Below are positions 910 to 55,500 of a DNA stretch of 64,000 nt, in pieces. Within the stretch, counting starts at the first letter, position 1; every line of letters starts with the position of its first letter. The stretch is taken from positions 35,898,001 through 35,962,000 of the forward strand of contig OZ020244.1 of NCBI GenBank assembly GCA_963971285.1, written 5' to 3'. The DNA is from Astropecten irregularis (taxonomy: Eukaryota; Echinodermata; Asteroidea; Paxillosida; Astropectinidae). A program made the position numbers and the translations under genes. The notes below the pieces were generated by a model, which ran no database searches, was not told where the DNA came from, and saw nothing but the letters and a program-made list of their open reading frames with translations.

Positions 910-3900
910 GTAAGTTTATTACGATATCTGTTACTGAAAAAAAGTATGTTAACTATAATAAATAACCTCAGTTACCATGACAATTTTTGGCATTTTAAAG
1001 GGAGCATATAGGATTTGCAAGGGCTAAAAAAAAAAATTATTGAATTATTATTTTCGTCTGCTCATTTGAGCCAAGTTTCATGTCTTTGCTTGCCAAAATA
1101 ATGAATCAGTTTTGATGAAAACAATCAGTTCTTGGCTTACGGGATCCTAGATTAGCAAGGAATTCTATCAGTTGTGATGGGCATGTGTTGTTCCTGCAAT
1201 TTAAGATTTCTCACTCGGGTAGTGCAAACAGGCAGTGCTTACCATACTCTAAATGAACTCTAAATGAACTCAAAGTCTTGCGGTCAATCTACTGATTTTG
1301 GGTTCAAATCCATCCATGGGTTAATGCCGCTTGCGTCCTTGGGCAAGACGCTCTGTCACATATTGCTCCTCTTCGCCAGGTGTAAAATGAGTACCTGTGA
1401 GGGTAAAGATGGCTTTGTGATTTGATTGGCATATGCGCACTGAATATAAAAGCCGGGCTGTATACTCTTCAGGGAGTTGAGATGGTTTCTGGAATGTAAA
1501 ATTATGGCCCAATGATCAGGGATAATAATAAATGTGTAATGCGGAGTAGAGTATATTCATATAGTAGCTGTGCAATATAAATGTCCTTTATAGTTACAAA
1601 TGGGGTATTGGCATCTAAAAATGGACATTAGGGAGACATCGGAACTTAGGGAGACTTTTCGATGTCTCCCTAAGGTACCAGCTACCTTTTAAAGACAGTT
1701 TTTTTTTCGAAGACAGAGAATGCTCTGAATGTGAACATATGTCAATTTCAAGTTCATTGGTTTGGAGGATGTTTAGAAATTGTTAAGTAAAGTTTGTGCA
1801 CGACCCTATGGGAAAGTCTCCCTAAGGTCCCATCCTCGGTTAACATTATTATCATTATTACTAAATACAAAGAATGCTAACATGACAAAGTATGATGATG
1901 AGTGTAAAAAAAGATACATTAATTTTTAATTAATTATTATTTTTAAGTCCGACATGCATTTACTGAAACCCAACATATGTGCATACGCGCATGTAAAGTA
2001 TTTTAAAGCTGGAACCTACTGTACCTGTGACATTAACAGAGAAACACATGATCACCATTGCCCTAGTGTAGAGTTGAAAGAGCTGTAAAGGTTTAGTCTC
2101 CAGTATACATACCCATGGTATTGAGCCCAGCAGTCTTTGAAAATGGATACTTCCAGTCAAGAATCCCTTCTCTCTGAAAAAAAGACTTGGACATCCTCAT
2201 CACTGCACCTGCCATCCGTTACTTAGCACCGGTGTCAGACAATGGGCATGATGAGAGGTATATTGTCTTTAAAGATCAAGAGTGATTCCTTGTTCCTGTA
2301 AGTCTATCCCCGCTGCCGGGGGGAAGCCAAGGATTGTCGGAAGGTATTAAAGAGCCAGAGCTCGGCAATGGATGTTGACTTTGTGCATAATCCTTCAGAG
2401 ATCAAGAAAACATCCCCGAGGTGTTTGTAAGGACGCCCCTTAAGGCCATCTGTTAAGGAGAGGATGACAGAGTCGGCAACTCTCTTATATTGAAGCTGGT
2501 TCTGTCTAGCAGCTATGCAGATATCTTAACAATACCAACTTAATGGCACCCTAGCCTTGCAGCGGCTTTTGATGCTGTGTAAAATAATAAAGGTTTTGTA
2601 CACTTCAAAGACAACCACACGCTCCACAAACAGGGTAAAACCACTTTAAAAACTCAAACTGCTAACTTGAAACAGAAAGCTAGCTTGGTAAAGGAGAAAG
2701 CTCTTCCCTGTAATTGTGTGGCACATCCTTGTATGTGACCAGATGAATAAAGTGAGTGAGGGACAAGTCATTCCTACAATATTTTGCATGTTTGCAATGT
2801 TACTTACATTAGGCGGTATGTACATAGCCCATTTATTTATTGCATCAAATGACAGTGTGTATGTACCAGACATCCCTACCAGTACCAAACATTTGCCAAG
2901 GATAGGAGGCATGTGTTTACATTATACTAGAGCAGATTAGACAGGGACTATAGCGTCTTATCTGTAGATAAAAACATTTTCCTCAAGCAGAACATTGATG
3001 CTTACATGTCCTTTTCAAGTATGTACATGTGCTATGCACAAGGACTTCAATTATTGAAATTTAACATATTTTCTTTGATTCAAATCAATTAAAATGTTTA
3101 GTTAATTAAATCATTAGTGAAACAAGTTAAAGGTATTGCCCAAAGTCACCTTGTTGCAAATTCAAAAGGAAAATCGGAGAAAACATGACCGGAAATGAAA
3201 CCTTGATTGAAAAACCTAAAAAACAATAAAACGCTGACTCACCATGACTCAGTACTTTTTTTTTTTTTTTTTCAAACCATTTTTAGGTTGGGCAAAATAT
3301 TTTTGATAATTTTTTTTTTCACTCTGGTAGGTCATATGTATTGCCAGAACATCCTTTTAGCCTATTCAGAACTTCAAATTCAACATTGTTTGAAATTCAC
3401 TACACCCTAGTGTACATGTATTTAGCTTTTGATTGTTATGTTCACGTACGACTGTTAAAAGGTATAATACATTGCACTTGATTTGTGAAGGTCACACTCA
3501 CAGATTAGCATTCACACTTATTCTGATCCTCATGTACATGAAATAATAAACCTTTGAAGATTTGAGCTCAATCGGACATCTCAGTCACGAGAAAATAGCG
3601 AAAACGCGACTCAATTTTGTCTCATAAAACATAAATAATGGTTTTGATTCTACCCCGAGATCTGCTGTTTTTGGTCTTTGATTAATTTCTAGATAAATAC
3701 ACCATTTCAGGTGGAAAATTTTAACGGTATGTTTCTCCCACCACCATCTTCATATCCTGAAAAATTATTTGTAAATCTGTGAACATTTCTGTTTGGATAA
3801 TGTTACCAATCCTGGACTGTACTTTCAAAGCAGTACAGACTTGTGATATTTTGACATCTTCTACAACTTACATTTTCTTTATTTAGAAGGCCTTTTGGGA

Positions 3901-6900: not shown

Positions 6901-9900
6901 TATTATGGCTTGAACATGTGCCAATAAAAAAAAAACTGTACATGGGGACTGTGATTTTACCCACTTCCTCACACTGATTCAGGGTAAAAAAAACAGTTTT
7001 TTATTTGGATATGCTAATTAGCATTTCCATATTCATGAGCAAAACTGTGATGTCATCTAGGGAACTGAGAGCAGTAACCCAATTGATTTGTGCACAAAAA
7101 GTTGCGGTTGTTTTATAGGTTTTCCGACAGACCTTTTCCTCCTCAATTGGTTTTATTTTGCCAAATATGTTCCTTTCACTCATTATGATGGTGTAATTCT
7201 TTTACCAAACCATTTCTGTAGGTCAAGTTTGGCTCTTTTATGTTTTTTCATTATATTTTTGCTGTTGGTTCCCTACATGAGAATATGCGTGAAAATCCCC
7301 CATTTTAAAAAAGCCATTCAAAGGAAAACCAAATGCTCGTTTGAAACCAAAATAAGACTTGTCATTCATTATCTGTCAGTATATTCTCTGTTTGCAGCAA
7401 TAAAATAACCTGACTGAAAAAAGCACTGCAGGAACCCTTTAAAAAAACTCTCAACCATTGAGACATTTTCTCAAGGTTGCGAAATCTTACAAAACGGTTT
7501 ACGCTGGCCGTTTTTGCGTCCTTTCACACAGCACAATGTAACATTTCGCAAGCCTGCCTTGAGACGTAACGCTGGTAATCGATAAACTATGCATTTTATT
7601 AATGTAAACGTTGCTAGTACCATCACAACGCTGTTTTTGCGCGTGAAGCGCGCGATAGAAAACACACGCATGCGCATTGCAAAGCACTTCGCAAGGGACC
7701 CTTGAGAAAATGTTGTCGTAGCTTTGGACCTCATTCAAATTCTCTCAAGGATTCACCAGGGACGTCGGTCACTCTCAAGCATTGATGTCCTTTCACATGA
7801 TGACACTTTTGTAATATTTCGCAACCGTGAGAAAATTTCTCAATGGTTGAGAGGTATTTTGGCATCTTGTGAAAAGGCCTTACACCTTTATGCAGTGTTA
7901 TGCAGTGTACTTAAATACTGAGTGAACTGCATCAATATCTTTCTCTTTGCTTTTTGGTGTTGTTCAAAACTCTAACCATCCTGTTGAACCTTAAAGGGTT
8001 CCTGCAGTGCTTTTTCAGTCAGGTTATTTTATTGCCTTCGGACAGAGAATATACTGACAGATAATGACTGGCAAGTCTTATTTTGGTTTCAAACCACCAT
8101 TTGGTTTTGGTTTTAATGGCTTTGCAAAATGGGACATTTTCATGCATACTCATGTGGGGAACCAACAGCAAAAAATATAATGAAAAAGCATAAACAATGA
8201 AGAGGCAAACTTGACCCACAGAATTGGTTTGGCAAAAATATTACACCGCCTGTTGAGTGAAAGGAACATATTCAGCACACAAAACTTCTTCAGGAGGAAA
8301 AGGTCTGTCAGAAAACCTATAAAACAACCCCAACTTTTTGTGCACAAATCAATTGGGTTTACTGCTCGTTACCCAGATGACATCACAGTTTTGCTCATGA
8401 ATATGGAAATTCTAATTAGCATACAAACCAAAAAACCTGTTGTTAACCCTGAAACAGTGTAAGGAATTGGGTAAAATCACAGGCCCCATATAACAATTTC
8501 TTATTGGCACGTGTTAAAGCCATAATATTCCTATTGCAGAGACTCTTTAACACTCTTCGCTGTTTCAACATTCAATAACAGTAAAATGCATCCCAGCCCC
8601 TTCGTATCTCACACCATCTTATCCAAGTGGACATCTTAATGCTCATTCTGTCTCCAAATCCACGGTATTGCCACGAAAACAACGCAACAACAAGTATAGG
8701 GCCTACCTGCGGAAATCGCCCCATAATCCCCCAATCATTTCCAAGCCCAATTTCAATTTCAAAACTCTAGAAGCTACGCATGGACAGGGCATTACAGTAT
8801 ATGAGACCGATGACAGCTCAAGTCCCTCGCTTCAAACTATAAATTTTTCATAGCGCATACACTTGCACGTACGTCTTTGAAGAAATGATCCCTACTCCCG
8901 CACTCAAGGACCCACCTTTGGGGTTGAAATAATTCCACAAAATAAGCCAGGGGATAAAAACTATGACTGGCGGATTGCTTTCTCACAAACCATCTCCCAC
9001 AAGCTAAAATGACAACCCCCCTTCCATTTTAAGGTACAATACATGATTGGTAAAGGTCACAGGACTGCACTCATACTTTGTCTGATCAAACATGTACATG
9101 AAATAATAAACCTGTGAAATTTTGAGCTCAAACGGACTTCTGAGTCACGAGAAAATAGCGAAAACCCGACTCGATTTTTCTTATAAAACATGAAGAATAG
9201 TTTACTTTATGTTTGTTCCAAAAATCGTTCGGACGAACGATCTTTGGAAAAGACACTAAATCCTGATTTGCTTGGAAAAACCCAGCATCTGATGAACCAA
9301 GATTTCCCATGGTGACTGTTTGCACTGTTTACGAACTGTTGAGTCCATTTTCTGTCTCAAACTGAATACATTTTTTTTGGAGGCCTTGCAAATCCTATAT
9401 GCCCCCTTTAAGTGTTCTACTTGTGAATTCTGTCCCATTTAGCAAGTAAATCCTCTCGCGTTACTTGCATGTTTTACGCAAAGCCTTTCAAATTGAGGTG
9501 AGAACATGATTGCCCTTTGCAAAATCTGTGTTTCCATCCATTAACCCTAATCCTCCTGCATACCACAGTTTACCATCACACCGTGGTTTTCCCCTGTGGT
9601 AAGTGTGGTATCCTGAATACCGCAATACACCACAATGTGGTTTACGTGCTGGTGATACATGGTCTGTGATCCAGTCCCCTTGTGGAGACTGGGGTAATGT
9701 GTGGTAAGCAGCTCTTGTCTTGTGTGGTAGGTGCAGAGGATTAGGGTTAATATCCAGTCCCCCTGTGGAGACTGTGGTAATGTGTGGTAAGCAGCTCTTG
9801 TCTTGTGTGGTAGGTGCAGAGGGTTAGGGTTAATATCCAGTTACCCTGTGGAGACTGTGGTAATGTGTGGTAAGGAGCTCTTGCCTTGTGTGGTAGGTGC

Positions 9901-12900
9901 AGAGGGTTAGGGTTAATATCCAGTCTCCCTGTGGAGACTGTGGTAATGTGTAGTAAGCAGCTATTGTCTTGTGTGGTAGGTGCAGAATTTAAGGGTTAAT
10001 ATCCAGTCCCCCTGTGGAGACTGTGGTAATGTGTGGTAAGCAGCTCTTGTCTTGTGCGGTAGGTGCAGAGGGTTAGGGTTAATATCCAGTCCCCCTGTGG
10101 AGACTGTGGTAATGTGTGGTAAGCAGCTCTTGTCTTGTGTGGTAGGTGCAGAAGGTAAGGGTTAATATCCAGTCCCCCTGTGGAGACTGTGGTAATGTGT
10201 GGTAAGCAGCTCTTGTCTTGTGCGGTAGGTGCAGAGGGTTAGGGTTAATATCCAGTCTCCCTGTGGAGACTGTGGTAAAGTGTGGTAAGCAGCTCTTGTC
10301 TTGTGTGATCGGCGCAGAGGGTTAGGGTTAAAGTACATGTACATGTGCGTGTTTTGTACATGTGGATCCGTTTGCACTTCCTGTATAAACTGTTACAAAA
10401 CAGAATTCTGTGATAATTCTTCATTTACAGTGTTATGCAAAACATCCACACTTAAGTTGGGTGAGGGAGAAATCCTTGATATGCATGACTGAAAAATCCG
10501 TACTAAGCGTGAACAGACATGAACTTAAAGCACTGAATTTTCTGCTTCTTCAAAGGTAGTATCATACTTTGGGGTTTTTTATCAAAGAAAGGCAGATTTA
10601 TGGTCGCAATTATCAAGACAGATACAGTAACAGTCATCTGTGAAAATTTCAGTCCCACATGGTGCCCATTTTTTTAGAAAACGGTGAAAAACAGCTACAG
10701 TATTTCTTAAGTCTTTTCTCTTTTATTTTTGATCTTTTAAAAGATCAAAAAGATTTCCAGCTAATTTCTGGATAAATACACCATTTCAGGCAAAACAATG
10801 TTAACGGTAGGTTTCTACCAGCACCATCTTCATACCCTGTAAGTTATACGTAAATCTGTGAACATTTCTGTTTGGGTTTCTTACCAAAGTATGATACTAC
10901 CTTTAGAGCGCTGAATTTTCTGCTTCTTCAAGCACTGACTCTTCCCTTAGAGCCATGCAACCGACTGGGCCCCGATGTGAAGCAATCCGCAAGCTGATTT
11001 CACATAGATGTAGCCCTCGTGTCTTGGGAGACAATGTACTCTGTCAGATCTACAAATAGTTTGTGCAATGCCTATTTAATAGTCGGTCCATTAGTGGTGC
11101 ACTTCAGGTCCATTACGTCCAACATGTTTAAAGGTAATATCACACTTTGATAGCATACCGAAACAGAAATCTTTCACAGATTTACCTATAACTTACAGGG
11201 TTTAAAGATGGCGATGGTAGAGACATACTGTTAAAACTTTTCTGCCTTAAATGGTGTATTTATCCAGATATATAGTAAAACAACGATCAAAAATAAAAGA
11301 GAAAAGACTTAAGAAATACTGTGGCTGTTTTTCATTGTTTTCCCAAAAGGTGGGCACCGTATGGGACTGAAATGTTCACAGATGACTGTTACTGTATCTG
11401 TCTCGATATTTTTGCCCATGAATCTGTATTTCTTTGACACAAAAACCAAAGTATGATATTACCTTTAAGAAATACTGTGGCTGTTTTTCACTGTTGTCTC
11501 CAAAATTGGGCACCGTATGTGACTGAAATTTTCTGTCTGTTTTCATACTGAAATTTCAGAAATTGTCATACTGTTACTGTATCTGTCTTGATATTTGTGC
11601 CCATGAATCTGTATTTCTTTGATAAAAAAACACCAAAGTATGATATTCCCTTTAAAATGGTGTGTTCTTATTCTTTTTGTTTTTGGCAGTTACCATGGGC
11701 CACGAAACAGTCATGGGACGTGTCTTCTTCTTCGGTGTATCATCCCACGCTCACCCTGTCTCCCTACAGGCCGGCCAAGGTAAGCTATGTAGCCACAGGA
11801 CAGAGATCAGCGAGGATTCCTGCGTGTATAGCAGACGCATTAGGGACAGATCAGACAGATTACCGCGCAAGCAAAGACAAGACAGATCTAATCAGGACGA
11901 CCTAATTCAGATGTAAAATACGGGAATTTACTGTGAATTGAATCATTGTCCAGTCAAATCCTCTTCATACATGACAGCTTATCGTCCCGTGTCAACATAC
12001 TTTCAGGATTTTAAAATCTGAACATTGGTGTTTTAAAACACACTGAAGTTGAATACAGCCTTTACGGTGTGTGTGTGACTTTTGTTTTTTTCATCGAAAA
12101 AATTGATGAAAATGATTTATTATATCAAGAAAAATGTTGTATTTAGAATCTTGAACAGATTAATTTTTTAAGGTTTTTTGTTTGTATGCTCATTAGAATT
12201 TCCATATTCATGAGCAAAACTGTGATGTCATCTGGGTAACTGAGAGCAGCAATCCAATTGCTTTGTGCACAAAAAGTTGGGGTTGTTTTATAGGTTTTCT
12301 GACAGACCTTTTCCCCCTCAATGGGTTTTATTGTGCTGAATATGTTCCTTTTACTCAACTGGTGATGATTTATTGTTGACCAACCATTTCTGTGGGTCAA
12401 GTTTGCCTCTTCATTTGTTTATGTGTTTTCATTATATTTTTACTGTTGGTTCCCCACATGAACGAGCATGAAAATACCCCATTTTGCAAAGCCATTCAAA
12501 AGAAAACCAAATGCAGGTTTGGAACCCAAATAAAGACTTGCCATTCATTATCTGTCAGTATATTCTCTGTATGAAGGCAATAAAATAACCTGACTGAAAA
12601 AAGCACTGCATGAACCCTTTAAAGGTGTAATACATGATTGGTAGAGGTCACAGAACAGCTCTCACACTTTGTCTAATCCAGCATATACATAAATTGATAA
12701 ACTTGTGGAATTTATAGCTGAATCGGCATCTGATACTGGAAAAAAAAATTCGAAAACGCGTCTCAATTTTTCTTATAATACATAAAGAATGGTTTTGATC
12801 TAACCCCGAGATCAAAACCGTTTTCAAACTTTGTTTTACTGATTTCTGGATAAATACACCAATTCAGGCGGAAACATTTTCACAATTATGTTCTTCATAT

Positions 12901-15900
12901 ACCATCTTCATATCCTGAAAGTTATACTTACATCTGTGAACATTTCTGTTTGGGTATTTTACCAATCCTGTATTGTACCTTTAAATAGGATAAGTTTGAA
13001 ACTGTTTCCATCTTTTTCTCACTAACATCAGAATTCAGCTTTGATGAGGAGTACATATATCAAGAAGAATTGCTCAGCCCTCCATCCAAATCGACCAATC
13101 AGACAACCGGAGAGAAAGAGAGTCATCAGCCCCCTTCGTCCAATCAGCAGTGGGCTTTGATAGAATTTGAGAAACCTGTAACCTGCCCTGCAAGGTGCCT
13201 GGTGATTGGCTCAAAGTTGGACACCGATATTCATATCCTTTTGTTGCATGTGTTCTGTGAACTTAATACAGACCAAGTGTTTTGCAGGTATTTTTTTTTT
13301 TTTTTTATATCAATGATTTGTACAACAGACTTAGTACGGAGGACAAACATTTTATGAAGTTGGTAGAAGTATGTTTGTAGAAAACATTCAGTCTTCCCTC
13401 TTGTGATGGTTCGGGGAGTCAGGTTGGCGAAGCGGTTCTTTCCTCGCCTTTCACCTCTGTGGACCGAGTTCAAGTCCGGTTCGGTTCACAAATGGATTGG
13501 TTTTTCAGTCCCTGCCTGATTCTGTGGGTTTTATACCCAGAATATTACTCTGGGGTTTTCCTCCCACCTCTTAAACTGTACCTTCTTCTCATCATCTTTC
13601 CAAAACAGGTTTCATCAGGCTTCTGAGCTACAGTGCCTAGGGCGCTTTTGAGGAATCCTTGGTGTCATTACCAGAAATAAATAATCATATTAATAATAAT
13701 AATATATATTGGTTTAAAGGTATTATCATACTTTGGTTTTTGTCAAAGAAATACAGATTCATGGGCAAAAATATCAAGGAAGATACAGTAACAGTCATCT
13801 GTAAAAATTTCAGTCCCATACGGTGCCCGCTTTTTGAGAAAACAGTGAACAACAGCCACAGTATTTCTTAAGTCTTTTTTCTTTTATTTTTGATCTTTTA
13901 AAAGATCAAAAAGATTTTCGGTCGCTGTTTTACTCATTTCTGGATAGATACACCATTTCAGGCGGAAACATTTTGAAGGTATGTTTCTACCACCACCATC
14001 TTCATACCCTGTAATTAATACGTAAATCTGTAAATATTTCTGTTTTGGTGTCTTACCAAAGTATGATACAACCTTCAATAACGGCTTTGTTTGTCTTAGT
14101 AGAGCCTTCTTGTTGTTTTTCGAAGTAGCAGAAGTTTAAACTCTGTGACACTGGTTCTTCTCAGGACGGTCCATGCAGGCTAAAGCTAGTTATACTCTCA
14201 GGAGCTCTTGTTAGCGTCATGCTCAGATTGATGTGGAAAGGTTTTGCTACATTGACTGTAAGGGCATCAGAGCTTGGCAGTGAGTAGACCGGAGCACAGT
14301 AAACACGTGGGTGAATCCCTGTTGACTCGATCTTAATTCGCCGCTTCGCTTCCAATCCCCAATCCCCGATGATGGTCGCTTCTCTCTACATCGAACCAAT
14401 CACGCCGAGGAAAAAATCGCCGACAAATCGCCGTCTCGTGACCGGAGTCTAATGCAGCCGGGGAGGGAAGGGAAGGGTGCAAACCGCCCGATCTTACAGC
14501 ATTGTTGACATGATGAGATGGCAAACGGACCGTGTGGAGTTTGCTTGAGACACCGGCGACTGGAGACGAGAGTGCTGGTGATAGTCACGTAGGGATCAAG
14601 ATCTTCCCCGGGTAAAGTGCAGTTTGCACTGTTTGGTCTGCGGGATTTGGCCGTTTCATCACAGTGAATAATTCTCATGGTTAGCCTCTTACACCTCGGC
14701 AATTTTATTCATGGTCTTATTTTTCTCTTGGATTTAGAAGAAAAATCCTGCCTTGTTCGTCCCTGTAGAGATTGCTTCATCCCACTGCATGGTGAATTTT
14801 TGCTGTTATCTGTAAAGCCTTTCTATCTAACAGTGGTATGAAACCACTGTGTGAAGGAGATTAATTTAATCTCAATGTTTTTAAAACTCGGTGGAAAATC
14901 CGGGGACATGTGCCGGCTTTCTATTCTTATTGAAAGCGAATACTTTGTTTGTCCATCTTTCAACTTCATCTTTTGTAATTCTTTATCAGGAAGGACAACT
15001 GTTATAGAGATAAGCTTGGTAATCATGTATGGCACTCATAGTCCACCGTAGAGCCCGTCATGCTTGCCTACGACATGTACTCTTGCATAGTGTATTATGT
15101 TCAACGTGTTGTAATAAACACGTTCACTTACGTTACGCTACTCACTGGTGTCAGTCTACACGCTAAACATGGTGTCAGAAGTGGGATACAACAACAATTC
15201 TGTGATTTGTAGTATACGGGAATAGGAAGCAAGTCAAGCAACTCTTATGAATCAAAACCGCTCAAAAGGCAATCAGAGAAATGTTTGTTCTTGTCATTGT
15301 GCACAGCATGCTGTGTAGAACCAATCACAGATTGGCATCATTTGGCCATCCGGGGGCAGCATTCACATTGTCTTTTGCATTTTTCTAGTGTGGTTGGAAT
15401 AGGAGACTTTGGAGAACGGGTCTTCAAGTCAACAGCGCAGAGCTAAGTTAAAAATGTTAAGAAAATATCTTGGCAAAGTTGCAACTTGAAGGTACAGTAC
15501 AGGATTAGTTTAACTTTCAGGATATAAAATGATCCTGGTAGAAACATACCGTTCAAATATTTCCGCCTGAAATGGTGTATTTATCCAGAAATTGGCAATA
15601 CAACGACCGAAAGCAGTTTTGATCTTGTGGTAAAATCAAAAGTCCTGTAAATAGATTTGAAAATACTGTGAGCAATTTCACTGTTTTCTATATACAGTTT
15701 CTGATGATTATGATACAGATTCATGGGCAAAATTACCAAGACAGATACAGTATACTATAGTAACAGTCATCTGTGAAAATTTCAATCCCATACGTTGCCC
15801 ACTTTTTGAGAAAACAGTGAAAAACAGCCACAGTATTTCTTAAGTCTTTTCTCTTTTATTTTTGATCTTTTAAAAGATCAAAATGATTTTCGGTCGTTGT

Positions 15901-18900
15901 TTTACTAGTTTCTGGATAAATACACCATTTCATGCAGGCGGACAAATTTTAACGGTATGTTTCTACCATCACCATCTTCATACCCTGTAAGTTATAGGTA
16001 AATCTGTGAACATGTCTGTTTTAGTTTCTTACTAAAGTATGATATACTACCTTTAAAGGTAAAGGCCGTTTTTCACTGTTTTCTCAAAAAATTGGCACTG
16101 TATGAGACGGAAATTTCACAGATGACTGTTACTGTATCTTCCTTGATATTTTTGCCCATATGAAGCTGCATTTCTTTGACAAAAACCAAAGTATGATATT
16201 ATCTTTAAATAAGCTACATATAGAACGTGAATCGGTGGAAGAAAAGGTGGTTGACTTGTAAAACCTCCTCACATTTTCTGCCAGAAAAAGTACCAGCCTT
16301 CGTGATATATGTGATTCTCACTTAATATCTTGACCCCTCCCTGACACACAAACCTGCCCCAGGGGCTCCGTCGCATCAATCATGTAGGCCTCTACTGCCC
16401 TCTAGATAATTAAGAGATTATATAGTTATTTGATAACACGGACCATGCTCATACACGTCCTGATCTCTACGGCTTTACCATCTGTCTCTGCCAGCATCTG
16501 CGATAATTAAATTCTCCCACTGAGGGCAGTTTTCAGCGGGGTGAAGATTTTTTTTAATGCTTTATGCGTCTCTTGTGGCTTGCTTATGTTCCCATGGTTA
16601 CATGTGCGCTGGGATTATCCAGTGCCCTTTTCCAAACCTCGGCTCCGGCTCAGGCTCCGGCTCCAGCTTTATTTCTTGAGTCAATTTTAAAATAACGGGT
16701 GTATCAAAATAGAGACTTTTGGCTGTGGTTCGGAAGTTGATTCTCTGGTTTGAAAGGGGAAAACGGAGCATCAGCTTCAATGAAAACCCACAATCTCTAT
16801 TTTCAGCATATGGATGACGGAGCCGGAGCCGGAGCCGAGGTTTGGAAAAGGGCCCAGGTTTCAAAAGGCGCGGGCGAGTTGGGAGGGCGGGGGAAGTATT
16901 TTAATTTGCGTTTGACGTCATCCGCTCATGTGTGTGAATCATGCTAACATAGTTAGTTAGTGTCATTAGTCAGTTAATCTCTTGTTTTTCAGAGACGGGA
17001 GGGGGCGTATGAGGTAGGACATTGCGTGAATGCTCGCTCGCAATATATATCGGGGTTGGACGGGGGAGGTGTCTATTTTCGGCAAGATGGATTCTGCCGG
17101 CTGATTAAACCAATTACGCATAGTCTGCTGCCGTCCATGAAATTAGCAATCGAGTTATGTCAGTTCATGTGCTGTATGTATGTATCTACGTGTATAGGCA
17201 CGCTACTCATCTCATGCTTGTCTTGAAGGAAAGGTCCAAAGAAATTTGGGTCATCAAGCAAATTGTTTTAATATCCATGGAGAAATCATAGTCATCCCTA
17301 TTTTTGGTTTTTGGTTTTTTAACTCTCGTGTTGAACGGTGCTGGATAGGATTGCAATGATTTCCCTTGAGACAGTGGTTGAAGTTGTGACATAGACTTAG
17401 GTTGTAGGCTAGCTCATGCTGCATGCAAAAAGTTATATGAGTGTGCTTAAAATGTTGCAGAGAATGGACCGTGGGGTAATTGTGTTGATCACATACTGGG
17501 AATGAATGCAGGCCAGGGGCCAATTTCTTTGAGCTGCTTAGCACAAAAAGTCGCAAAGCGTGACATTTCTGTCTTTAATAATAAAAACAGGATTAACAAC
17601 CAAATTTCCATGTGTTGTGCATGCATCACTTGCAATTGTTCTTTGGCTGTTGTTCGCTGACCACGAATATCAAATCGAATTTTCAATGGTGGTTTTACTG
17701 TTTTAATTGTTTTATTGCACAAGCCATTTTTGTGCTAAGCAATTTGTTTGTGCTAAGCAGCTCTATGAAATTGGCCCCATAAGATAAATCGCATATTAGC
17801 ACTGATGTATATCCATTTGATTTCTTGTCATATATCATGATATACGGGGTGTCCCAGAAAAAAATGCAACACTGTGTCTGGACCAGTTACATGTATGTTC
17901 AAATTGTCTTTGTTCGTTTGGCAGTCAGAAACCATGCACATATCGCCATACCCCAAGTATCATTTCACTGATACGCACAGCAATGCTGCAACCTGAGAAA
18001 CAGTATACATGGGTGATCACTCAAAGAGGATGCAGCGTTTTTAATCAGTATGTTTAAAAAAAAAATTTTTTTCATCCCCACTAATATTCAAGAAATATTC
18101 CTGGCATTTCCCTTAACTTGTATCCACATTCCAACACGTGTCGGCTTGCATTTCACGGTCAACTCCTACACCATATCACAGACAAGGTACGTCCAATGAA
18201 TCTGACTGATCAGCTGTATTTGCCCAATGTTTCATCATCCATCGATTATTCTTGTTTTTTTTTATTAAGCGGCAGTTTTGACGTAAGCAGCAATAAACAA
18301 TCCCATCTTCTTTTGATTTGCGTCGATCCACAAGCAACAAGGATAAAAGTCATAATTATGCAAATTAGGCTTGCTCTTCACCGACGTGGATGAGCTCTGC
18401 ATACTCAGTGCTTGTGAGAGCACGTGAAAAAATCACATGCTGGCTCAGGTGGGATTCGAACCCACGACCTCCTGCTTATACTAGTGCAGATGCCATACCG
18501 CTATAGGCCAACGAGCTAGCTGGGGTCAGCGGGGTGAATCGAATCCAATATCGCGGCGTGTACCTCAGTAAATCCTGAATATTAAAATATTCAGGATAAA
18601 GGTCAATTACAAGTTGTTTTGCTCTGAGAAGCTGTTTACGCAAGAAAAAATGTTACTCCTTGAAATGTAGCCGTTCTGAGATGGCGTTAACAGGGACATT
18701 AATGAAGTGTTGATTTAGCTGTATTAAAAGACTTGTTCACTGTTCATCCCTCTGTGTTTGCTTCTCAGAACTACGCCGAGACCGTTCTGCCGCAGCTGAA
18801 AATCTTCAAGAACAAGAGCAGAGAAGGCTTCGTTGACAGAGTAAGCAAATCTCTTCCAATTGATAAACCCAACTCAATTCAGTCCCCCCCCCCCACCCTC

Positions 18901-27300: not shown

Positions 27301-30300
27301 CAGTTGCATTGTGGGAAAGTTATTCTTGATTTTTTCTGGTTCCTCAAACAATACCACATTTTCTCAAACGTGATACCACAATTTGAAGCCACATACTATG
27401 TAATAGCAAAGCTGTTAATGGTATAAGCTTCCATTTTATGAAGTCAAACCATAGATGTGGTGGGTGTTGAGCTAACTCCTTAAGAGAGGATGTTCAACAC
27501 TTAACAAACCTCGCTTTGTTTGTTAGAAAACAAAATATTTATCTCACACAGAAAGAGAGTCTTTTTGATGAATTTTGCTCAACCCGCAAGCTGCCCCAAA
27601 ATTGAAACTGTCTGAATTTCGTCAATGGGGGCAGCAGACAAATCTGTGTGATTTCGTGACGTCACATTACGGAGTCTTTTCATTAAATGAAAAGGCTCAT
27701 TACGTCACATTACGGAGCCTTTTCATTAAATGTATGCTGCCCCCATTGACGACATTTAGACAGTTCCAATTTTGGGGTAGCTTGCGGGTTGAGCATGTAG
27801 AGTGAAAATTCATCAACAAGACTCTTTCTGTGTTCAGTGTGAGATAAAAAAAATTCTCATCTCAAGTAATTTAATGATTATAGTTCTAACAAATAAAGCG
27901 AGGTTTGTTGAGTGTTGAACATCCAGGAGAGAGTGCTTGTTAGGTACATGCTTCACTGAACTTTTGAGTGCCATTTGTTTGTTTTGAAAAAAACATCACC
28001 AATCCTGTCAACTTCTTTTTGACTCACCATGTAGTGGTTCGACTTCGATTACAAAGGATTTGATCATTATGGTTTGAGAAAGATATTAACTTTCTCTCCT
28101 GAGGACGACTAGAGCACACTAGTCGAAACGTCGAGAATCCACTCTCATCGGTCCTTTTCAGGACCACACATCTTCCATTGAAAAAGAGTATTATATTTGG
28201 TGTCACCGCTAGCCTTACTCATTCTAAAGATATTCTCATCATCATCTGTTGATAGTTTGTCCCCTTCTATTTCACATCAAGGGTTAGGGTTAGGGTTACC
28301 TGCAACTCCTCTAATGTGGTCTATGCCATCAGTTGCCTGCAATGCCCCAGAGCCCCCTGTACATTGGTCAAACTGGTCAGTCACTGCGGCAACGGATCAA
28401 TGGCCACAAGTTTGACATTCGACACCAGGATGTGGAGAAGCCAGTGTCCCAAAGACTTCAATCTCCCTGGCCATGCCATCGCTGACCTGAGAGTGGCTGT
28501 GCTCAGACAAAAGAACTTCAAAACCAGAATGGACAGAGAAGCAGAGGAGCAAAAGATAATCCACAGACTGGACTGCTCCCAGTTATGACTTATCATGCCC
28601 CCTTTTCTTTGGATATGCTTCATTGCTTTATACCAGTTGATATACTCATGTTGATGATGCTCCACTTCATTACATCTGATGAAGTACTTGTTACTTCGAA
28701 AGCTTATGTAGTTTTTCTCATAGTTAGTCTTTAAGTGCTACCCTAATTTTCTTTATTACATCTGCACAGGTGACAGATGAGTACACCGTCATTGGCCGAT
28801 CGCTCTTCAAGAAAGAAACCAACATGCAAGCATTTGTTGGGCTCAAGGTTGAGCTGTCTACTGGGGAGGTGGGAGTCATCGAAGGAGGTTTCGGTCAGAG
28901 TGGGAAATTCAAGATTAGAATTCCCGGTGAGTGGGATTCATGGGTATTTCAATTTTTTTTTTGCCCAGTGGCCCAGATTTACAGAACGTATGCTAAACTG
29001 AAAGTAAGCTTTCTTGCCAATTAAAGGTAGTATCATACTTTGGTAAGAGACCAAAACAGAAATGTTCACAGATTTACGTGTAACTTTCAGGGTATGAAGA
29101 TGATGCCAGTAGAAACCTCGCGTTAAATATTTCCGCCTGAAATGGTGTATTTATCCAGAATTTAGTAAAACAACGACCGAAAATCTTTTTGATCTTTTAA
29201 TAGATCAAAAATAAAAGAGAAAAGACTTAAGAAATACTTTGGCTGTTTTTCACTGTTTTCTCCCAAAAAAAAGTGGGCACCGTATGGGACTGAAATTTTC
29301 ACAGATGACTGTTGCTGTATCTGTCTTGATATTTTTGCCCATGGATATGTATTTCTTTGATAAAAAGTATGATATTACCTTTAAAGCAGTAATGAACTGC
29401 TGCAAATTGCTCATCAACCAAAACGATAGCCTGCAATATATAAAATGCTTGGAGTTAATATTAGGTTGACCTGATGTTTGATCCTAGCAGAATCTTTTTT
29501 CAAAGGCTAAATGTTCCTGCTACATTTAGGATCTCCTGACTTAAAGGTACAGTGTAATATCATACTTTGTTTTTTTGTCAAAGAAGTACAGATTTATGGG
29601 CAAAAATATCAAGGAAGATACAGTAACAGTCATCTTTGAAAATTTCAGTCCCATACGGTGCCCACTTTTTGAGAAAACGGCGAAAAACGGCCACAGTATT
29701 TCTTAAGTGTTTTCTCTTTTATTTTTAATCTTTTAAAAGATCAAACAGATTTTCGGTCGTTGTTTTACTTATTTCTGGATAAATACACCATTTTAGGCAG
29801 AACAATTTTAACTGTATGTTTCTACCACCACCATCTTCATAGTTCATACCCTATAAGTTATACGTAAATCTGTGAACATTTCTGTTTAGGTTTCTTACCA
29901 AAGTATGATACTACCTTTATTAACGCAGAAAGAGTTTCTCTAGCATGATTGAATTTGAGTAAAGCAGCGCTATGAAATGGAAATCATATACTTCAGATTA
30001 TAACCTTTGGGATAGAAATGAGCAGTATGTTGGCAGATGCCACTAGCCAGTTCAGGCCACTTATGTGGAGGTGACATTTTTGGTTGAATCTTCAGAATCC
30101 TCCCACATTTCAACCAATAGTGTCCTTAGTCCTTACGCATTTTTATGGCCGCCATGACGCATGACATTACGGGCGAATCACAACCACTAACTTCATACCG
30201 TTATTTCGCTTTTCGCGGCAGTTGACCGCTGTTTTAATAACTTTTTTTTGTTCATTTCACTTGATTTCTAATTATCGTAAACTAAAGCAAGAAAAGATTT

Positions 30301-41675: not shown

Positions 41676-41991
41676 TGGTTTGAGGACGTGTCTACACTAC
41701 TGATTTCCCCCCTAAATGGCAGATCACATCTCGCCTTGCGTAAATAGTGACCTGGACCTTGGGTTATACAGCCAATCAAGACGCGTATAGACGCGTCGGG
41801 GATCGGGCGCGCCGGCGACTCTGATCTCTGATGCAGATCGACTCATTTTGCGTCGACCAGTTTTAACTCCAAAATTCGTTTGGATGGCTGTACAAAATAA
41901 CTGAAGCTGGGCACCAAATTTCCGTCTTAAAGCAGCATCAAGACTTGTGTTGAACTCATTTTTTGACATTGTGTATATTGTCACTTGTAAA

Positions 41992-42336
41992 ATGATGGCA
42001 GATATTAAAACCATGTTGCGATATTTGGCCGCACTAGCTGTTATAAACGCAGTCATTTACGTGCACATCGCCGAAGTTCATTCTTCAGTCTATAATGATA
42101 GACCCCGTAGGATGTGTGGCTATGTGGGTTACATGTTACAGACCCAAAGCTTCAGTCAATCCATCGTGAAGACACAGAGAGATTGTTTTAATCTTTGTCT
42201 TCGCGATGCCCTCTGCAAGTCGACCAACTACTTTAGGAAGGAGCGTCGTTGCGCCTTGTATAACGTGTCGCACCTGGACAACGGCCAGAAGCTCACGGTG
42301 GGACCGGAAAGTTTCTACGCTTACAGCGAATTGGAG
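41992..42336 (+). CDS. PAN-FReD gene exon 1 (signal peptide and PAN domain)
   Basis: Coding exon ending at donor gtgaga, phase 0. It holds the signal peptide and the whole PAN/apple-like module. The 5' UTR and promoter are not defined, though an AGCCAATCA CCAAT-like box lies near 41771. Confidence 0.85.
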
Positions 42337-44634
42337 GTGAGAATATAGGATTTGAAATGCCCAGAAAAACATTATAATGAGTAAGCTAAGGAAAATGAAG
42401 CGTTTCATTTTACCTGTAATGAATAACATCAAAATTACCCTTTTCCCGTGCATTCATAGGCCTAAACCAATTGCACCAAAGACGGAGGAACTTCGACTAG
42501 TAGTAGGCCTACAAGGCAAAAATATTTAATAATTTTTATAATCATTAAAATGGGATAAGAACTTTCATGCTGCATCGCTCGACATGCAGTTTGAGAAAAC
42601 CAAATGCAGAATGGAGAAAAAAAAAACCAAGAAAATCCTTTTTTCACAGCGTAAAACTCATTATATGATATATATTTTTCACTTAACGAGACGTTTTCGT
42701 GCCCAGCATTTTTCATCCTTTTCGGAGTGGATGCTCCTTGTTAAAGGTAGTATCATACTTTGGTAAAACACCAAAACATAAATGTTCACAGATTTACATA
42801 ACTTACAGGTTGTAAAGATGGTGGTGGTAGAAACATACTGTTCAAATTTTTCCGCCTGAAATGGTGTAAATTAGTAAAACAACGACCGAAAAATCTTTTT
42901 GATCCTTTAAAAGATCAAAAATAAAAGAGAAAAGACATAAGAAATACCGTGGCCGTTTTTCACTGTTTTCTCAAAAAGTTGGCACCGTATGGGACTGAAA
43001 TTTTCACAGATGGCTGTTATTGTGTTTCCCTTGATATTTTTTCCCATGAATCTGTATTTCTTGGACAAAAACCAATGTATGATACTACCTTTAAACTAAA
43101 ACAAAATGTTGGAGTCTGGAATTAAAAACCAAAGGGCGATTCTTTGTAATTTATACATTTTTATTTTGTATTTGTTCTCGATCGGCTTTCATCAATGTGT
43201 TTCGTTCTTGTATCCATCAACTGATCTGGGATTTTTCTCTCTTATATAAACCCAAACAGCCTGACTGTAAAGATGCTACTGAGACCGAGGTTGCGTGCTT
43301 AGTGGACAGATGTACCTTGACTGACAACACACCAAGGTATATACCTTTTAATGTTTTGTCTATTTGGCATTTAAGCGATACCAATACCGGCTTGCAAATT
43401 AGTCCTTCAGTAATACTTCTGCTCAGTAGTCATCCCAATATCAATGAATTTATGGGTGCATTCGTTTAGCTATCACGGGTCAGCCCTTAGTGGGAATGGT
43501 CGTGCTATACTGCACAAAACAAGCGAGAGAATGGGACGAAGTTGACTGGTGTCGACCCGGGGGAGCTAAGCGAATGCACCCTATGGAACACACTGTATGT
43601 CAGTATCACTAGACTATAGTCCCAGGTCCCAACTTTACTATACTGTAACCACAGGACAGAGAGCAAGCATTATAGTGATGAATACGTTAATTTCTCCCAG
43701 TCTTATTAGTCACTATATTATATCATATTGCAACTAACTTAAGAGGTCCTTGAAAAATACCACCATATGCCAAGACCCATGCCCTACAATTCATTTTACA
43801 CCACTCAACTGATCTCACATGAAGACATATTATGGCACATTTTAATCCCAATCTGGGGGTTAACTTAAAAAGAACTTGCTCCAAGTTCTCCGGAATAATC
43901 GGTGCATATCGATTGCATAATAAATTAGTTATGTCAACGTTTGTTTTGTCTTTATTATGATTCACAGAAATTGCAAGATGCTCTTTGATGGTGGTTGCTC
44001 AGTCAACGGCGTCTACACCATCTACCCGCAGGAGCTCGTCGGACAGGGCATCCAGGTCTACTGTGAGATGGACGCTGGTCACGGTGAAGAGGGCGGCTGG
44101 ATAGTGTTCCAGCGTCGACTAGATGGCAGTGTGGACTTCTACCGCGCTTGGGAAGAGTACCGGTCCGGATTTGGCAATATGTGCGGTGAGTTCTGGCTGG
44201 GTAATGATAACCTGGTAACACTGACATCAGAGGGAAATTGGGAACTACGTGTTGATTTGGAGGACTGGGAGGGCAACACTGCACAGTCACAGTTTGGTAG
44301 TTTTCGAATAGTTGGGGATTTATACAATCTAAATATTGGCCCGTGCGTAATTGACAGTTGCTCTGCTGGAGATTCAATGTCAAACCTCAATGGGTTGCCC
44401 TTCACGACAAAGGATATTGATAATGATAGAAGGACGAGCAGCAACTGTGCACAAGAACGCAAAGGTGCATGGTGGTTTAGAAACTGTGGCCGCTCTCATT
44501 TGAATGGTCCGTTTCTCCGGGATGATAATGGCACAGTTGCTACCCGTGGCATTACGTGGTATGATTGGAAAAGCTCGGGATATTCCATGAAAAAATGCAC
44601 CATGAAAATACGTGAATTTATCGTATCGGGTTAA
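41992..44634 (+). CDS. Secreted PAN/apple plus fibrinogen-related domain protein (complete, three exons)
   Basis: Exons 41992-42336, 43260-43336 and 43968-44634 join in frame (phases 0 and 2) into 362 residues. ATG 41992 is chosen because it precedes a signal-peptide-like stretch (LRYLAALAVINAVIYVHIA). In-frame ATGs at 41947, 41995 and 42013 are alternatives; 41947 would bury the hydrophobic segment. Next come a PAN/apple-like domain with paired cysteines (CFNLCLRDALCKSTNYF, CALYN), a short linker with three cysteines, and a full fibrinogen C-terminal domain. Visible FReD motifs are GGWIVFQRRLDGSVDFYRAW, FWLGNDN, the Ca-site-like DIDND, and the ending NCGRSHLNG with KCTMKIR. Family members such as ficolins and tachylectins bind acetylated glycans or work in adhesion and innate recognition. 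The ligand here cannot be told from sequence. Confidence 0.92.
42745..43090 (+). mobile_element. Family A MITE in PAN-FReD intron 1
   Basis: TTAA on both sides; AGGTAGTATCATACTTTGG to CCAATGTATGATACTACCT. Confidence 0.87.
43260..43336 (+). CDS. PAN-FReD gene exon 2 (Cys linker)
   Basis: Acceptor acccaaacag and donor gtatat bound 77 bases, phase 0 to 2. It encodes PDCKDATETEVACLVDRCTL and a short tail. The three cysteines may form interchain or linker disulfides. Confidence 0.85.
43453..43582. mobile_element. Family U short palindromic MITE in PAN-FReD intron 2
   Basis: gggtgcattcgtttagct / agctaagcgaatgcaccc inverted ends, about 130 bp. Confidence 0.75.
43968..44634 (+). CDS. PAN-FReD gene exon 3 (fibrinogen C-terminal domain)
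   Basis: Acceptor tgattcacag, phase 2 in; runs to TAA at 44632-44634. One exon carries the complete FReD from NCKMLFDGGCSVNGVYTIYP to the KCTMKIREF end. Its length and motif order are normal for the family. Confidence 0.95.
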
Positions 44635-52514: not shown

Positions 52515-55500
52515 GTAAGTTAAAACACCCTATCCCTCTGCACAGGCCTACCACACAAGACAAGAGCTGCTTACCACACATTACCACAGTCTCCTTAGGA
52601 CTGGGTCATAAACCACGCATTATTACACAAACCACACTGTGGTGTAATGTGGTGTTCAGGATACCACCCTTGCCAAGTAGCTAGTCCGGGTAACAAATCC
52701 GGTGCGACGAAACTAGGAATCCCAGTTTCGTTGACGGATTTTCAAATCCGTTGTTGTGTTCAGAGATTTTCGTGGTCAGGTTAAAAAGGCATTATTTCCA
52801 GTATATTGGTTTATTTAGTTGTTGTTTATTAGATTTGTGGCAAAAAACACAAAAAAAAAAAAAAAAAAATGAAGGTAAGTTTGCGGTGACACCATGTAAT
52901 CTCTTCTGTGAGAGTGTGTGGTTCTGAGAAGAACCGTAGGTATTAACTCGACGTTCCGAACAGTGTGCTCTGTTCGTCCTCAGGAGAATGACTGGTTGCG
53001 TGACTACGATGATGCAGAATATAACCTGGAAGGATGCATTGGACCGGAAACTGTTGGATTGCGTAGAATCCCACTGGATGAATGGATACTCAGTGTGAGC
53101 ATTGGAGCGTGACATTTGGGAACTAGGAGTTGTGGGGTGAGGAGCTAAGAGCCGTAGGTATAGGTGACCCATTGGCTTGTTGTAGTAAGGGGTGCCAGAT
53201 GCTGCTGATGTGGAAGCCAATGTCTTGGGGGACTGTGTTGTGTTTGTAGATTTCTACTGCTTCCCTGATGCGTCTTGGGTACCATCTGTTGAGTGGGACG
53301 ATGAGTTCAGCTGCTTGCCAGTTGATGATGTGGTCTTTCTCGTGTGAGTGCTTGATGATCGCTGATTTCTCGTAGTCTCCCCTGCGTCCGTGGGCAATGT
53401 GTTCTTTGGGTCTGGTCGGAAGGTTTCGACCAGTCTCGCCGATGTACACCTTCCCACATTCACAGGGGATCCGGTAGATGCCAGCTTTCGTCTGGTGGTC
53501 TTGCTTGTCCTTGTGGGTTTGTAGTTGGGCTTGAAGCTTGCTGGATGCTGCGTGGAATACTCGAATATTGGCACGTTGAAGGATGCGTTGTATCTTGTGG
53601 GAAGCATTGCCTATGTATGGAAGGGAGAAAGACCACGTCCCTTCACGTTCATTCTGCTACTGCTAGCACCATCTTTTAATAGACTGGGTCCCAGTCAAAC
53701 TGTGAGGTTTGGGCACCGGTCATGGAGTTAAATATTTGTTTTGAAATCTATGGGCACCGGTCACGGTGCACGTCCTGCAGCATGCACTGCACGCTGCACT
53801 AAGTTGGTCTAAACTTCTCGTTGCCGCCGATCCGAGACCGAATGGTTTATATAGTTTTTGTCTACTTAACATCAACAATGTGAAGGGGACTGGCAACAAG
53901 TCCACTTAACAGATTTGCAAATTCAGTACCGAAATTAGGAATCGGATGATAGAGGGCGTTTATGATCTAGTTTCTTCGAATTCTTCGTTGCAACAGGCCT
54001 ACTTACTTAAATTGTAATTACACATATTGCCCGGCGAACTTACCACCGCACCAGGACAAATGAAAACCATAGTGTGGTAAAGTGTGGTATGCAGGTGGGT
54101 TGCAGTTAGTGAATTTAAGGCTCATTGATAATAATCAATAACATAATCATTGATTAATATCCAGTCCAATGCCCTTTCATGTTGTGGCATGAAATTCTGC
54201 ATTTAGTTCAGAATGTGGCGAAAGTTCCGCTGACGACTTCCACGTTAATGGTCGTGCTCAAATTCTACAAAATGAGTTTGCAGGAAGATTGTTGGTGCCG
54301 GCAACAATTTTATCCCACCATATAGAAAATCAAAACTGACAAATAGATGCATTACTTTCAGCATCAATTCAGTACTACATTGGATATCTTACTTCTTAAA
54401 AGGTGCAATTGTGTACAAGTCAGGTTTCCCTGTATGTATAATACTACCTTTAATGCACTACCTTAAACTGTATTACTGTCATTTAGATTGTAATTCCAAA
54501 TATAAGTTTTTTTATGAGACCAATTTTGAAACTTCTTACCAGGACAGTGAATCATTCTCGAAAGCGCTGCTCAAGGAGTGCGCACACTGGCCCCTCCCGA
54601 TAGAATCCTGTGCCATCACAGACCAAGGAGCTCTGGGCATCAAGCTTCATCGGTCCAGCATCTTCAAGAAGGTTCTGACCACCGTGCAGCGAGAGGGCAA
54701 CAGCTATGGGAGGATTGCTGCTGGGACGCGGAATGGACCCAGTGGAATAGCCATTGTGAATGGCCATTTGCTGAGAGGAGGCAAGGAGTCCAGGAATGGA
54801 GACGGGGAGCGAGATGAGGGGGAGGTCTTGACGTTAAGTCAGTTGAGGGGCCTTCTTCTGACTGAGCACCTGACAGCTTTGTTGGAGACTGCAGGGTCAG
54901 TGAGCAGAGTTACTTTTTGTCTGACATCAGAAATTGATCCTCTTCCAAGTTGTTGTAACAGCTTCCTGAGAGTTCAGTTGATGAAGAAATTATTTGTTTT
55001 AGATAATGTTTCATTAGTTTAGCTTCTCTACCATGCTTGTAGTAGCATACACAAGGCTCGAAATATTTACTAGACTGGACTGTGTTTAATGTACTGCACT
55101 AGTCCAACTAGTGATTTTGTTTTCCTCGCACGAGTAAAATGGTGCCTAAAATGATGACTTTGTGGCTGAGTGAACACATTTTAGGGTATGGTGCTGTTAG
55201 TAATTTATCTACTTCTTCATTATTCTCTCCAGGTTTCAGGTCTGTAACCTGACCCCAGTTACACACGCATCCTCCACAGTGCTGGACCTCTTCCGAATCG
55301 GGTTGCTCCAGACCCTGCAGAACGAAGCATCCTCATCAAGGGATCCATCACAGGCTACGCTAGAAAAATTCGTCCGTGCGGCAAGCTCTTGTAAATTCAG
55401 AACTAACAGGTCCGCATCAGGGCATCAAGACAAGGTAACAGTTGGTCGGAGGTCGAGAGACAGTGATGTTGAGGCCCAGGCCAGCCCGGCGGAAGAGGGC

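Follow-up and report, generated by a model that had tools for sequence, protein, structure and literature searches.

A probable U12-type AT–AC intron in the EEFSEC gene of Astropecten irregularis

The gene EEFSEC, which encodes the selenocysteine-decoding factor eEFSec, lies on the + strand of a 64-kb stretch of the Astropecten irregularis genome (the window, i.e., the whole stretch of DNA that was analyzed: contig C1, positions 35898001–35962000; the searched genome comprises 475.7 Mb in 168 contigs). Seven of its coding exons were located within the window by tblastn with the human EEFSEC protein in combination with splice signals. Five of the six introns between these exons have GT–AG ends, and the remaining one, between exons c and d, has AT–AC ends. 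This intron, referred to here as intron c–d, is the subject of the present analysis. The gene and the signals of intron c–d are laid out as follows.

841–909, + strand: EEFSEC exon a, preceded by AG and followed by GT (gene model)
11690–11779, + strand: EEFSEC exon b, preceded by AG and followed by GT (gene model)
13032–13232, + strand: EEFSEC exon c, eEFSec domain III, preceded by AG and ending in ..GATATTC in phase 1 (Pfam euk_SelB_III, 5.9e-15; PDB 5izk, 5e-15)
13233–18127, + strand: intron c–d, probable U12-type (minor) AT–AC intron of 4,895 nt in phase 1, starting with ATATCCTTTT and ending with TCCCTTAACTTGTATCCAC, with interspersed repeats inside
13233–13242, + strand: putative U12-type AT–AC 5' splice site ATATCCTTTT, 10/10 to the consensus
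18109–18117, + strand: putative U12-type branch site TCCCTTAAC, 8/9 to TTCCTTAAC, with the branch adenosine at 18115 or 18116
18126–18127, + strand: AC 3' terminus of intron c–d (sequence and gene model)
18128–18186, + strand: EEFSEC exon d (SNTCRLAFHGQLLHHITDK), followed by GTACGT (tblastn, 1.05e-4; once joined, euk_SelB_III profile 1–120/120)
18769–18840, + strand: EEFSEC exon e, preceded by AG and followed by GT (gene model)
28770–28926, + strand: EEFSEC exon f, domain IV, preceded by AG and followed by GT (tblastn, 4e-20)
32815–32944, + strand: EEFSEC exon g, the last coding exon, with coordinates that take in the first two bases of the stop codon (tblastn and gene model)

Two more EEFSEC exons lie upstream on the same contig (stretch L026, about 3490–3630 and 7373–7550). 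The intron between them and the one that leads to exon a are both GT–AG when read by eye, which brings the number of GT–AG introns read to seven. The survey thus covers eight introns, from the L026 exons to exon g. Within L026, no U12 donor-like site with at most one mismatch was found on the + strand. The exon c peptide has a single match in the genome.

An earlier note on this DNA had named EEFSEC as the host gene, and the protein obtained by joining 13232 to 18128 confirms this identification. Its 258 residues align over their whole length with the solved human eEFSec (PDB 5izk, E = 1.1e-84), span the complete domain III (1–120/120) and domain IV (1–119/119) profiles, and share 60% identity with the human EEFSEC segment. 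The joined protein reads LDTDIHSNTCRLAFHG and the human one LDADIHTNTCRLAFHG. The junction, LDTDIH-S-NTCRLAFHG versus LDADIH-T-NTCRLAFHG in human, falls inside the block LDxDIHxNTCRLAFHG, and the AT–AC ends restore the conserved frame, as the same note had proposed. Moving the boundaries by between -12 and +12 nt gave 25 placements, five of which yielded the same residues, and a shift of +3 gave the T found in human and a score of 221, versus 217 for the AT–AC join. The protein alone therefore leaves the exact base unfixed. Among these 25 placements, AT–AC ends occur only at zero shift. Other terminal combinations (GT–AG, GC–AG, AT–AG, and further ones) were also enumerated in the tested ranges. 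Other AT–AC pairs were considered and set aside: 58 more of the 420 (21 x 20) keep the frame, and the next best of them scores 203 versus 217.

The sequence signals at both ends are those of a U12-type intron, and the coordinates given for it in the earlier note proved exact. On both strands of the window, the only 10/10 match to ATATCCTTTT is the donor of intron c–d. The string RTATCCTTT has two matches in the window, which is close to chance (mean 1.67), and branch-like strings are not more frequent than expected by chance. With such strings at chance frequency across the window, the evidential weight of the donor and the branch site comes from where they stand, namely at the borders of the exon homology. 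When the 60 nt around each intron end were dinucleotide-shuffled 100,000 times, an AT donor of at least 9/10 within ±10 nt arose 119 times and a branch site of at least 8/9 together with an AC end 518 times; donor and branch/AC in frame with each other were obtained in no shuffle. The adenosines at 18115 and 18116 are 12 and 11 nt from position 18127, which fits the optimum of 11–13 nt given for the distance between branch adenosine and 3' end in U12-type introns (PMC6717393). Similarly, phase 1 agrees with the published tendency of minor introns to avoid phase 0 (PMC10639083).

The genome also has matches to components of the machinery that such an intron would need. Matches to all four minor small nuclear RNAs (snRNAs) score above the Rfam cut-offs, and each of the four has a single match among those candidates that were scored (U12, 132.2 bits; U6atac, 139.2; U11, 100.7; U4atac, 87.4), and none of the 14 control genomes contained a match to U11, U12, U4atac, or U6atac. 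There are three matches to the CHHC finger (zf-U11-48K type), of which the one at C23:2089973 presumably represents U11-48K and the other two presumably GTSF1. The donor of intron c–d is predicted to pair with the animal's own U11 at -7.5 kcal/mol and with its own U6atac at -7.4 kcal/mol; the five GT–AG EEFSEC donors of the window reach at best -4.5 (U11) and -3.4 kcal/mol (U6atac), and 10 of 5,000 random 11-mers pair as strongly with both RNAs. The 5' end of U11 in this genome (L007, about 1501–1516) reads AAAAAGGGTTTTT, in which position 9 could add an A–U pair with donor position +3. Human U11 has GGGC in the corresponding stretch.

Taken with the restored frame, these signals indicate that 13233–18127 is, with high probability, a U12-dependent AT–AC ("A-type") intron of the eEFSec gene. 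At the molecular level, it is a minor intron of the ordinary kind. It shares with known U12-type AT–AC introns the termini, the donor, the branch site, the branch distance, the non-zero phase, and a host genome in which all four minor snRNAs have matches, and differs from them in that it is known here from sequence alone. AT–AC ends, U12 donor, and U12 branch are likewise common to the CENATAC-dependent A-type minor introns (PMC8280824).

Several points weigh against this assignment. The case is built on the DNA of one animal genome, and the consensus strings used for donor and branch site were not derived from A. irregularis. The pyrimidine fraction before the terminal AC is 0.68, which overlaps the 0.68–0.82 of the GT–AG introns. 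Pairing of the AT–AC acceptor region with U12 (-8.2) does not discriminate, as 1,568 of 5,000 random 30-mers pair as strongly; of the five GT–AG acceptor regions, three pair with U12 more strongly than the AT–AC region (-9.9, -11.9, and -12.2) and the other two reach -7.8 and -8.0. Finally, the GT–AG pair 13288/18092 keeps the frame and has fair U2-type signals, with a donor, CAGGTATTT, that matches CAGGTAAGT at 7/9 and a pyrimidine-rich acceptor.

This last pair is the core of the main alternative, in which the intron is an ordinary U2-type GT–AG intron with other boundaries, chiefly 13288/18092, that add 30 lineage-specific residues to eEFSec. The earlier note had held that no GT–AG pair restores the frame, which was too strong: 8 of the 275 GT–AG pairs (25 donors x 11 acceptors) and 3 of the 99 GC–AG pairs keep the frame without stops, although no GT–AG pair does so cleanly. 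All eight GT–AG pairs use the AG at 18092, and each adds, removes, or replaces residues in the conserved block. Ranked by protein score, the leading pair adds 15 residues (192 versus 217 for the AT–AC join). The best by U2-type signals, 13288/18092, scores 177 and places its 30 residues between DIH and SNTC, in a block that is continuous in human. Its donor equals the best of EEFSEC's own GT–AG donors in the window (range 5–7 out of 9), and the pyrimidine fraction of its acceptor AAATTTTTTTCATCCCCACTAATATTCAAG, 0.71, equals that of the lowest among the gene's five GT–AG acceptors tested (0.71–0.82). In the remaining seven pairs, the donors score 2–5 out of 9, and GT donors of 7/9 or better are plentiful (58 on the + strand of the window). 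In human cells, loss of CENATAC has been reported to switch on alternative major splice sites (PMC8280824), which favors a weaker form of the same idea: 13288/18092 as a cryptic alternative used by the major spliceosome when the U12 intron stays in. Under the full GT–AG explanation, it would be a coincidence that a U12 donor of 10/10 and a branch site of 8/9 stand exactly at the edges of homology, and we consider this explanation improbable.

Two further explanations are more improbable still. Major-spliceosome splicing of an intron with AT–AC ends is one of them. U2-type AT–AC introns have donors that resemble ATAAGT, whereas the donor here is ATATCCTTTT and a U12 branch site stands 11–12 nt from the end; only the terminal dinucleotides are shared, and donor and branch both belong to the U12 type. 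For human, 85 major AT–AC introns or related subtypes are mentioned in PMC8280824; as a proportion, U2-type AT–AC introns make up 0.01% of human U2-type introns, and AT–AC introns 26% of human U12-type introns (PMC7367187, Table 2). This explanation is very unlikely. The same holds for an unrecognized exon within 13233–18127, with the AT–AC pair arising by coincidence, which had been named in the earlier note as an outcome that would overturn its proposal. With its 4,895 nt, the intron is long, and open frames occur in it; the human protein, however, is continuous over the junction (DIH-T-NTC) with no residues missing, and tblastn of human EEFSEC listed no match wholly inside the intron at E ≤ 10.

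Two observations were also made on the content of intron c–d. Copies of an interspersed repeat occur in both orientations at 13713–16209 (180 nt at 93%, 110 nt at 87%, and 49-nt inverted arms at 96%). Just inside the ends of the U12 intron, 13288–18092 reads CAG/GTATTT ... CTAATATTCAAG/, a possible cryptic U2-type alternative or decoy.

If intron c–d is removed by the minor spliceosome, the steps established for this class would apply. U11, and then U6atac, would pair with the donor ATATCCTTTT, and U12 would pair around CCTTAAC, with the branch adenosine bulged. After recognition by U11/U12, U11 would give way to U6atac at the donor, and 13232 would be joined to 18128 by the minor spliceosome. 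In human cells, A-type minor introns rely on CENATAC (92% of them are affected, versus 24% of G-type), and AT–AC sites are outcompeted by GT–AG minor sites (PMC8280824). By analogy, intron c–d, as an A-type intron, is expected to splice less efficiently than GT–AG minor introns and to need CENATAC.

The consequences of retention can be read from the frame, which continues for 40 residues beyond DIH to a stop at 13355–13357. The resulting protein would thus lack the end of domain III and all of domain IV. In human, the nonsense variant p.Cys426* is reported to be among those that significantly reduce UGA/selenocysteine (Sec) recoding in a cell-free test, and EEFSEC deficiency is a neurodegenerative disease (PMC11739927, whose accessible passages give no intron boundary at codon 438). 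This truncation lies 12 residues before His438, the human position that matches the junction. As p.Cys426* cuts recoding, removal of intron c–d is very likely required for functional eEFSec, and the predicted truncation very likely makes this intron a single point of failure for the factor. The earlier note's idea that minor-spliceosome activity could be limiting here is reasonable as a hypothesis. It is a further step, and an unlikely one, to suppose that removal of the A-type intron is a control point for eEFSec, such that minor-spliceosome (CENATAC or U6atac) activity in this lineage would tune selenoprotein synthesis. Should the intron be ancient, the same control may possibly operate in animals generally.

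With this intron, a selenocysteine-decoding factor would be added to the genes dependent on the minor spliceosome, and a testable link emerges between minor-spliceosome disorders or U6atac control and selenoprotein levels. There is also a practical aspect: gene predictors that expect GT–AG ends may misannotate EEFSEC here, the more so with a frame-keeping GT–AG decoy nearby. In the literature searched, as far as its accessible text goes, no paper was found that links EEFSEC to minor or U12-type introns; supplementary gene lists were outside this search, and minor-intron databases may already hold EEFSEC. Queries that combined EEFSEC with "intron retention" or "U12" gave, in the accessible texts, unrelated mentions only. 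EEFSEC is among the transcripts lowered (-1.51 fold) by isoginkgetin according to one paper; this compound inhibits both spliceosomes, and the observation was too unspecific to be used. Scans of viral_contigs and genome_contigs revealed no relatives.

A second candidate AT–AC U12-type intron, in phase 0, was identified from sequence in KTI12 (PF08433; C14, about 8531619–8531918, corresponding to the minus strand of L022, 2918–2619). The exon ends in ...GCAAACGACAAA and is followed by the donor ATATCCTTTG; about 300 nt further on come the branch site TTTCCCTTAAC and an AC, and then ATCAGCCTGACAAGG. The distance from the branch adenosines to the AC, 19–20 nt, exceeds the 11–13 nt optimum. Joining raises the protein's score against the KTI12 profile (185–271/271) from 31 to 76.2 bits; a PDB search gave no convincing relative. 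PSTK was considered as an identity for this locus and rejected, as the PF08433 profile and the C-terminal sequence, which we take to be KTI12-like, both indicate KTI12, and PSTK lies on C18. The human KTI12 gene is not known to contain introns. The KTI12 intron implies that the EEFSEC intron is not alone and that AT–AC minor introns occur elsewhere in the genome.

The genome also has matches to other components of the selenocysteine pathway. A tRNA-Sec match is located on C20 (75.4 bits). On C24, six clustered matches to the tRNA-Sec model (1346774–1354374; 46.5–49 bits) are weaker than that on C20 and possibly represent other tRNAs with a long variable arm. SEPSECS, SECISBP2, PSTK, and SEPHS all have matches, those of PSTK and SEPHS being below the models' whole-protein cut-offs, as exon-wise matches may be. 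No U12-type intron was found in the portions of these four genes that were read, and pathway-wide control by U12 introns, which had been considered, thus has no sign in them. In SEPSECS (9 kb; three matched stretches, profile 27–388/389), there are no branch-like sites, and the single coding-strand donor-like site (at most one mismatch) lies past the presumed stop codon. In SECISBP2 (18 kb), the one intron read is GT–AG; six donor-like sites on the + strand (at most one mismatch) are unplaced with respect to exons, and one of two + strand branch-like sites falls within the GT–AG intron. Those PSTK introns that were examined by eye, within 3.2 kb, are GT–AG, with one coding-strand donor-like and one branch-like site unplaced. 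In SEPHS, for which the result covers one of two loci (the second being L040), a perfect GTATCCTTT lies within an intron with GT–AG ends; three other coding-strand donor-like sites are unplaced, and no branch-like site was found on the coding strand.

The remaining observations concern other features of the window. In EEFSEC intron d–e, a tRNA-like match at 18441–18517 on the minus strand (Rfam, 33.8 bits; cut-off 29) was not called by ARAGORN and is possibly a tRNA-derived repeat. Downstream of EEFSEC, open frames on the + strand contain a PAN domain (41950–42345; 9.8e-08) and a fibrinogen C-terminal domain (43942–44634; 7.3e-62). Positions 52896–52940 on the minus strand match the histone-type 3' stem-loop (Rfam RF00032, 34.5 bits; cut-off 34), and an AAGAGA-like stretch follows. 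A very similar sequence recurs, partly inverted, in a SEPHS intron (L039, about 4840–4750); judged by eye, the element therefore seems to belong to an interspersed repeat, not to a histone gene. Just upstream of this stem-loop, on the same strand, a 177-aa open frame (53126–53656) with no Pfam match at E ≤ 10 contains CECGKVYIGETGRNLPTRPKEH, which resembles a GIY-YIG endonuclease end of a retroelement.

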